A program made the position numbers and the translations under genes. Below, piece after piece: positions 1 to 1,395 of a stretch of DNA of 38,160 nucleotides. The notes under the pieces were generated by a model. That model saw only the letters and a list, made by a program, of their open reading frames with translations. It was not told the DNA's origin and searched no databases. The stretch comes from Candidatus Saccharimonadota bacterium. GTDB lineage: Bacteria > Patescibacteriota > Saccharimonadia > Saccharimonadales > Saccharimonadaceae. The DNA lies in the NCBI GenBank assembly GCA_017432425.1, contig JAFRJE010000012.1:1-38160 (forward strand), in the 5' to 3' direction. How positions within the stretch are numbered: the first letter of the stretch is position 1; each line of letters begins with the position of its first letter.

Positions 1-150
<150 letters not shown>

Positions 151-313
151 TTGAGAAGGATGTTAGGCGCTTTTCTTAGGAAAAGTAGCTAGGTCGGTCG
201 TAATTGTGTATGGTAAGCTTAGTACACAAGTTTTCTGGAAACAGATGCGACTTTGAGCTTAAGACTTTTGGATTTTCGGTGATATAATGCGCAACTAAGT
301 TGTTAAAATCTGG
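151..313 (+). other. 16S downstream spacer without tRNA or 23S
   Basis: This stretch lies where an rRNA operon usually has its internal transcribed spacer. I see no tRNA and no 23S start. It contains small dyads and an extended -10-like TGATATAAT (TATAAT at 283-288) with only a weak -35 (TTAAGA near 259, spacing 18). That box would start a transcript near 295 that runs straight into the terminator at 314-344. Confidence 0.6.
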
Positions 314-344
314 AACGTACTCTAAAGAGTACGTTTTTTGTTTT
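314..344 (+). terminator. Intrinsic terminator ending the 16S transcript
   Basis: A stem of nine to ten base pairs (314-322 with 327-335, AACGTACTC/GAGTACGTT) with a four-base loop is followed by a T-rich tail. It indicates that 16S is transcribed without 23S and 5S in this genome. Confidence 0.9.
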
Positions 345-369: not shown

Positions 370-397
370 TTGAAATGGAACGGGGGGGGGGTATAAT
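370..397 (+). promoter_or_regulatory. Promoter with a G10 tract in its spacer
   Basis: TTGAAA (370-375) and a perfect TATAAT (392-397) are separated by 16 bases whose last ten are all G (382-391). The start of transcription would fall near 404. A homopolymer in the -35/-10 spacer is the usual arrangement of slippage-controlled promoters. The -10 box touches an ATG at 398, so that ATG cannot be used on the transcript; a GTG with a good ribosome site lies at 461. Confidence 0.75.
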
Positions 398-460
398 ATG
401 AGGGAATTAGAAACCTTAGGGTTTTTGTTCTTTAATTTTTTGGGAAAGGAGGCGAGAGAG

Positions 461-1354
461 GTGGGGCTGACGCAGATTTATACGCTTGACGACGAGGTTG
501 GATTTGAGCTGAACGACGGGACGGTTGTTAAATTTAAGTATGGTGAACATCAAGAGGGGCTAATTGGACTGCTAGCTAGATTAAGAGATGAATTGGGAAG
601 AGTACCGACTTTTGAGGACGCTTTAAATTATCCGAAGATGCCCCACCCGAACACGTTTGCGTTTTATTTTGGGTCGTTTGAGAAAGCGACAGAGAGGGTT
701 GGAGGAGTACGAATTGAGAGAATAGAGAAAGGAAGTGAGGATATGTCGAGAAGAAAGTGGACGCACGGCGAAATTATTTCGCTCGTTATTAAGAAAGAGA
801 AAGAACTGGGGCATTTTCCGACGCAGAAAGACTTGAACGACGACCCGGAGTTGCCGAACTATCAGACGATCGCGAATAAGTTCGGAGGTTTAAGGGAACT
901 GAAAGTGGAAGTTGAGGAGAGAAAGAAGAAGCTGGAGGCTATGGGAGAGAAATCTTTGGAGACTCCAGAGGAGGCGGCGGTACAGGCGATTTTGGACTTG
1001 ATTACTCCGCCGAAGAATACCGAGGGGGTTTCTGAGAGCGTTCCTGAAGTGGCTTCTGAGGAGGCGTCTGAGGTGCTTGAGGCGTCTGGGGTATCTGAGG
1101 AAGTCGTAAGTGAGGTTTCCGAGGAAGTTGTTGAGAGTGAACCGATAGCCGAAGAGGAGGCGAGCGAGGGAAGTTATGAACCGGAAGTTGTATCTGGAGA
1201 CGTCGAGGAGACGGAAGAACGCGAAGAGGATCGCAAAGAGGGTAGTGGGAACGGGGAGGCGAAGCCGATTCAGACAACTGTGGAAGTTAAGAATGATGAG
1301 GGGAAGAAAGTTGTTCGGATTGTTTTGAGCCTTGAGATTTCTTTCCCGACCTAG
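461..1354 (+). CDS. HNH-repeat-like putative DNA-binding protein with acidic tail
   Basis: I chose the GTG at 461 because AAAGGAGG (445-452) sits 8 bases before it; the in-frame ATG at 398 abuts the -10 box and would not be on the mRNA. The protein (297 aa from GTG) has two units of about 45 residues, at nucleotides about 557-700 and 770-915. Both have the pattern of homing-endonuclease-associated repeats: a helix, then ELGRVPT or ELGHFPT, a proline-rich turn and a final helix with FGSF or FGGL. Such repeats act as DNA-binding modules. A long low-complexity stretch of Glu/Ser/Val (about 950-1250) follows, then a short predicted strand segment. No nuclease motif is visible. The gene stands alone between two terminators. 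It could be a transcription factor or nucleoid protein; function unknown. Confidence 0.7.
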   Translation: MGLTQIYTLDDEVGFELNDGTVVKFKYGEHQEGLIGLLARLRDELGRVPTFEDALNYPKMPHPNTFAFYFGSFEKATERVGGVRIERIEKGSEDMSRRKWTHGEIISLVIKKEKELGHFPTQKDLNDDPELPNYQTIANKFGGLRELKVEVEERKKKLEAMGEKSLETPEEAAVQAILDLITPPKNTEGVSESVPEVASEEASEVLEASGVSEEVVSEVSEEVVESEPIAEEEASEGSYEPEVVSGDVEETEEREEDRKEGSGNGEAKPIQTTVEVKNDEGKKVVRIVLSLEISFPT

Positions 1355-1359
1355 GATTA

Positions 1360-1395
1360 CCCTCGATCAAAAAGATCGGGGGATTTTTTATTTTT
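1360..1395 (+). terminator. Intrinsic terminator after the HNH-repeat gene
   Basis: Stem CCCTCGATC/GATCGGGGG with an A5 loop, then a long T-rich run (1384-1396). It separates the first gene from the methyltransferase promoter immediately behind it. Confidence 0.9.

Follow-up and report, generated by a model that had tools for sequence, protein, structure and literature searches.

A poly-G promoter spacer downstream of the 16S rRNA gene in a Candidatus Saccharimonadota bacterium as a candidate phase-variation switch of the porA/fetA type

The window, which is the whole stretch of 38,160 nucleotides analyzed here, corresponds to contig C2 in the genome of a Candidatus Saccharimonadota bacterium (712 kb in 30 contigs). 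Its first part holds the end of a 16S rRNA gene, a terminator-like hairpin, a promoter with a run of ten G in its spacer, and a gene encoding a protein with two HNH_repeat domains. The features are as follows:

1–149, plus strand: 3' end of the 16S rRNA, the contig beginning inside the gene (Rfam RF00177, E 9.8e-36)
142–149, plus strand: anti-Shine-Dalgarno CCTCCTTT in the 16S tail, within the window
312–337, plus strand: intrinsic terminator-like hairpin closing the 16S transcript, 5' of the promoter
370–375, plus strand: -35 box TTGAAA (sequence, promoter scan)
376–391, plus strand: promoter spacer of 16 bases, TGGAAC-G10 (sequence, promoter scan)
382–391, plus strand: G10 tract, candidate slippage site (sequence; orthologues with G9, G10, G11 and G14)
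392–397, plus strand: -10 box TATAAT (kept in all 14 orthologous promoters aligned)
404–460, plus strand: predicted 5' leader, its start placed 7 nt past the -10 box (corresponds to the leader kept in orthologues)
445–452, plus strand: Shine-Dalgarno AAAGGAGG, perfect complement of 142–149
461–1354, plus strand: CDS of 297 aa with a GTG start (PF18780, AF2 model)
554–703, plus strand: first HNH_repeat domain, residues 32–81 counted from GTG 461 (Pfam)
1360–1382, plus strand: terminator-like hairpin 3' of the CDS

In the promoter scan, positions 370–397 match the consensus at 11 of 12 positions with a spacer of 16. The -35 box TTGAAA holds five of the six consensus bases and is weaker than the TTGACA/T found at most poly-G sites of the genus, the G10 tract adjoins TATAAT with no gap, and TGGAAC fills the rest of the spacer. 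The initial annotation, which described TTGAAA and TATAAT separated by 16 bases including ten consecutive G, is exact on this point, as read from the sequence. No other G run longer than 7 was found in the 38 kb window. The -10 box directly abuts ATG 398, and a transcript beginning about 7 nt past the box would exclude this codon. Because the Shine-Dalgarno AAAGGAGG standing 8 nt 5' of GTG 461 is perfectly complementary to CCTCCTTT in the tail of the organism's own 16S rRNA, GTG 461 is the best-placed start, which bears out the earlier proposal that the -10 box touches an ATG and that the true start lies at 461. No 23S rRNA was found in the 38 kb window; since the 16S rRNA gene also has its own terminator, the 16S and 23S genes may be unlinked.

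The product of the gene consists of an N-terminal beta segment, two HNH_repeat domains, an acidic low-complexity tail and a C-terminal beta hairpin. The two stretches matching PF18780 have E values of about 1.5e-13 to 1.7e-13, scoring 51.3 bits against a curated cut-off of 26, and in the AF2 model the repeat helices mostly have pLDDT values of 80–93 and the tail is disordered. The earlier description of an HNH-repeat-like, non-surface protein with a long acidic tail is supported. The Pfam scan of the 297-aa protein found no HNH nuclease domain, so that it does not qualify as an HNH homing endonuclease. It shares with HNH_repeat proteins the two repeats above the curated cut-off, and differs from them by the lack of a nuclease domain, the long acidic tail, the C-terminal beta hairpin and the position next to 16S in the genus. 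Weak matches of PIN_5 and PRK04358 on the acidic tail were dropped as compositional, and a structure search with the partly disordered AF2 model found nothing significant (best E 0.2). From its family and domain type, the protein is probably a DNA-binding protein.

The HNH_repeat gene sits downstream of 16S in several species, and its orthologues are mostly 16S-linked. A G run stands against the -10 box at five orthologous promoters, namely those of the window (G10) and of genomes G001 (G9), G013 (G10), G063 (G14) and G175 (G11, on a contig that stops short of 16S), while genomes G018, G029, G031, G033, G069, G082, G120, G126 and G166 have a -10 box at the same place, often as TGnTATAAT, without a G run. 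All 14 aligned orthologous promoters keep the -10 box, with a leader of the form GTGGGAGTA...TTAA and then a Shine-Dalgarno after it, and the orthologous tracts lead directly into this non-coding leader. The conservation of the -10 box and leader in the 14 orthologues indicates that 392–397 is a genuine -10 box and that the tract lies in a real spacer. As most orthologues have the -10 box without poly-G, the gene does not depend on switching. The GTGGGAGTA..TTAA element, which lies in the leader (398–460) and is kept between the -10 box and the Shine-Dalgarno of 16S-linked HNH_repeat genes, could possibly act in regulation at the RNA level.

The same promoter layout recurs in the genus. The pattern TTGA-N2..13-G8-N0..8-TANNNT was scanned in 174 congeneric genomes with the reversed pattern as control, giving 91 matches against 3, an enrichment of about 30-fold, which argues that the layout is not due to chance. 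Its distribution is patchy, with at least one match in 49 of the 174 genomes. In the 82 distinct sites parsed, the tract is flush with the -10 box at 74, the -35 box is TTGACA at 51 and TTGACT at 17 (68 together), and the -10 box is TATAAT at 28, most others being TATTAT, TACAAT, TAGAAT or similar. In Neisseria porA, the poly-G adjoins the -10 box. The spacers of 71 clean sites have a mean of 17.7 and a standard deviation of 2.3, most being 14 to 22 and one 26. The length of the G run is negatively correlated with that of the rest of the spacer (rho -0.33, p 0.005, the lower cut at G8 limiting the test), and this anti-correlation fits an importance of total spacing, as longer G runs go with a shorter remainder. 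Several contigs end or start about 100 bases or less from a poly-G promoter (G107:C1, G107:C19, G157:C21, G181:C28 and G086:C9), which suggests that repeats or strain variation disrupt assemblies there.

At the level of the order, the pattern is again patchy, being present in 48 of 392 genomes and concentrated in the family of the window. In a scan across Patescibacteria, only sporadic sites were found outside the family, at a number not far above the control rate, and for this reason no phylum-wide claim is made. Among the matches listed, TTGA-n-G9-TATAAT also occurs in gut Bacilli, Clostridia, Streptobacillus, Streptococcus and Helicobacter; these promoters are the same by sequence in unrelated phyla. 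The pattern is frequent among the matches listed (L145–L263) in metagenome-assembled genomes (MAGs) of gut Bacilli and Clostridia, several of which have more than one site, and switching through such promoters may be a widespread trait of gut bacteria.

The genes driven by these promoters are biased toward the cell surface. An N-terminal signal or transmembrane segment, called by a simple hydropathy rule and not by SignalP, is present in 53 of 78 driven proteins and in 20 of 66 neighboring ORFs (Fisher p 1e-5). Matches to Pfam and NCBIfam among the driven proteins include internalin-like LRR, FISUMP, Listeria-Bacteroides (List_Bact) repeats and SpaA, together with a pectate-lyase-like adhesive domain, T4SS pilin and TM2. 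In a second group, comprising 9 of the 78 driven proteins, there is no signal peptide but a W[DEQ]x[LVM] motif close to the N-terminus; this motif occurs in 0 of 68 control stretches of the same proteins and in 0 of 33 ORFs of the window. The motif lies at about residues 15–40, sometimes followed by VPFxG (L062, L063, L069, L071, L080, L083, L114, L123 and L138), and is possibly an export or targeting tag. The family of the window protein forms a third, cytosolic group and is an exception to the surface or secreted majority.

The genome itself has four tracts of at least ten G in its 712 kb, and three of them are promoter spacers. Besides the window tract, these are TTGACTTTTGTTGAC-G10-TACAAT at C13:127677, with the -35 box TTGAC, and TTGACAAAATGGTC-G14-TACACT at C21:114394, with the -35 box TTGACA; the protein driven from C13 reads as secreted and LRR-like and that driven from C21 as of the T4SS-pilin type. 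The fourth, at C10:7270 (L141), is a coding homopolymer with 10 C on the coding strand, at whose assembled length the downstream half of the gene falls outside the reading frame, making it a candidate translational switch or an assembly error.

The lengths of such tracts change faster than their surroundings. Orthologues of the window locus, which belong to different species, range from G9 to G14, and other loci of the genus include near-identical paralogous promoters that differ in length only. In G029, two promoters 1.6 kb apart have 0 differences in 48 flanking positions and carry G11 and G10. Pairs of promoters in other genomes differ at 1 flanking position with G15 and G10 (G027), at 1 with G10 and G9 (G114), at 4 with G10 and G14 (G115), and at 2 with G17 and G16 (G107). 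Several of these comparisons of tract length are drawn from draft MAGs. A coding tract behaves in the same way: two copies in G031, on C6 (L298) and C12 (L299), are identical over 122 bp save one G, and G9 opens a long secreted protein, whereas G10 leads to a 15-residue peptide. Because near-identical copies differ in G count at both promoter and coding tracts, the tracts appear to change faster than their flanks. Furthermore, the N-terminal domain of MutS (MutS_I, PF01624) went undetected in the genome and exceeded the cut-off in 0 of 60 relatives, in a search in which 11 of 14 control genomes score. Slippage errors are thus probably not corrected by MutS, and the genome appears permissive for slippage, a property that supports the assignment to porA/fetA-type loci and does not strictly define it.

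In Neisseria, porA has a homopolymer in the -35/-10 spacer, and variation in its length alters spacing and transcription (van der Ende, 1995, as cited in PMC5320596), and fetA/frpB has a poly-C between the -10 and -35 boxes whose length alters expression (Carson, 2000, as cited in PMC5320596). The slippage-prone homopolymer between the two boxes, by which loci of this type are recognized, is present in the window (G10, 16-bp spacer). From its sequence, the poly-G spacer promoter is best read, with a probability of roughly 0.78, as transcriptional phase variation of the porA/fetA type, belonging to a genus-wide set that mostly drives surface or secreted proteins. A sigma-70-type promoter downstream of 16S would drive the gene of the 297-aa protein with two HNH_repeat domains, slipped-strand mispairing in replication would add or remove G residues with no detectable MutS repair, and the -35/-10 spacing would shift around the optimum of 16–18 bp, so that transcription would go reversibly up or down. 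Under this mechanism G10 (16 bp) would be moderately ON, G11 (17 bp) would give the highest output and G9 (15 bp) would be weak. We infer slippage at the window locus in living populations, its effect on transcription and DNA binding by the product. Slippage at the promoter spacer, already proposed in the initial annotation, is the reading favored by the comparative evidence, which comprises differing orthologous lengths, enrichment in the genus and sister copies with identical flanks. The window locus would work like fetA and porA; in porA, the switch was shown by experiment for a single surface porin, whereas in Saccharibacteria it is deduced from sequence for many loci per genus and the window gene is non-surface. 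The fetA/frpB case likewise concerns another organism and gene and is experimentally verified.

Other explanations of the tract were weighed. The G run could be a fixed promoter element, that is, a structural spacer of set length or a binding or quadruplex site tuning a constitutive or regulated promoter without switching. The total spacer centers on 17–18 bp and the tract is almost always flush with the -10 box, as such an element would have it, and the anti-correlation of G run and remainder is also expected from stabilizing selection on spacing. This explanation is nevertheless unlikely, since spacers spread over most of the range from 14 to 22 and up to 26, identical flanks carry different tract lengths, orthologues span G9–G14 with many lacking any tract, coding G tracts in the genus vary too, and long G runs are hard to keep at a fixed length without detectable MutS. 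It is considerably less probable that the tract toggles an N-terminal extension or translation. ATG 366, preceded 11 nt 5' by AAGGGAG, would be in frame with the main ORF at one G more or two G fewer (a tract of 11 or 8), and coding G-tract switches exist in the genus; yet the terminator at 312–337 cuts ATG 366 off from upstream transcription, the -10 box, leader and Shine-Dalgarno before GTG 461 are kept in orthologues, and the orthologous tracts lead into a non-coding leader. Least credible of all is an artefact of assembly or sequencing, or a G run arisen by chance. In favor of an artefact, homopolymers are prone to error and a contig end is 382 bases away, but errors would not set G runs between TTGACA and TATAAT, and 91 matches against 3 in the control, from many independent assemblies and at orthologous positions, contradict an artefact as regards the existence of the tract, the exact count of 10 being possibly off by one.

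Transcriptional phase variation through the poly-G spacer therefore remains the preferred reading. Our search of the open-access literature yielded no description of phase variation for either Saccharibacteria or Patescibacteria, and the hypervariable repeat gene of a gracilibacterium (PMC6851277) represents a different mechanism. Phase variation of the porA/fetA type is apparently unreported so far in Saccharibacteria, and the window locus is a well-supported candidate of a known switch type in a group for which none was found reported.

Saccharibacteria are ultrasmall and live as epibionts on other bacteria. In the parasitic members of the genus considered here, random DNA slippage probably turns surface genes on and off, and surface variation bears on host resistance, phage and animal immunity. 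The genus-wide set, with poly-G promoters in front of genes for adhesin-like, pilin-like and other secreted proteins, provides a concrete list of candidate switches. A regulatory role for the window gene is a possibility, and it is a rather speculative thought that its phase-variable HNH_repeat protein binds DNA and regulates other genes, the poly-G surface genes perhaps among them. If that is true, slippage at one promoter would switch an entire surface programme in an epibiont facing changing bacterial hosts.
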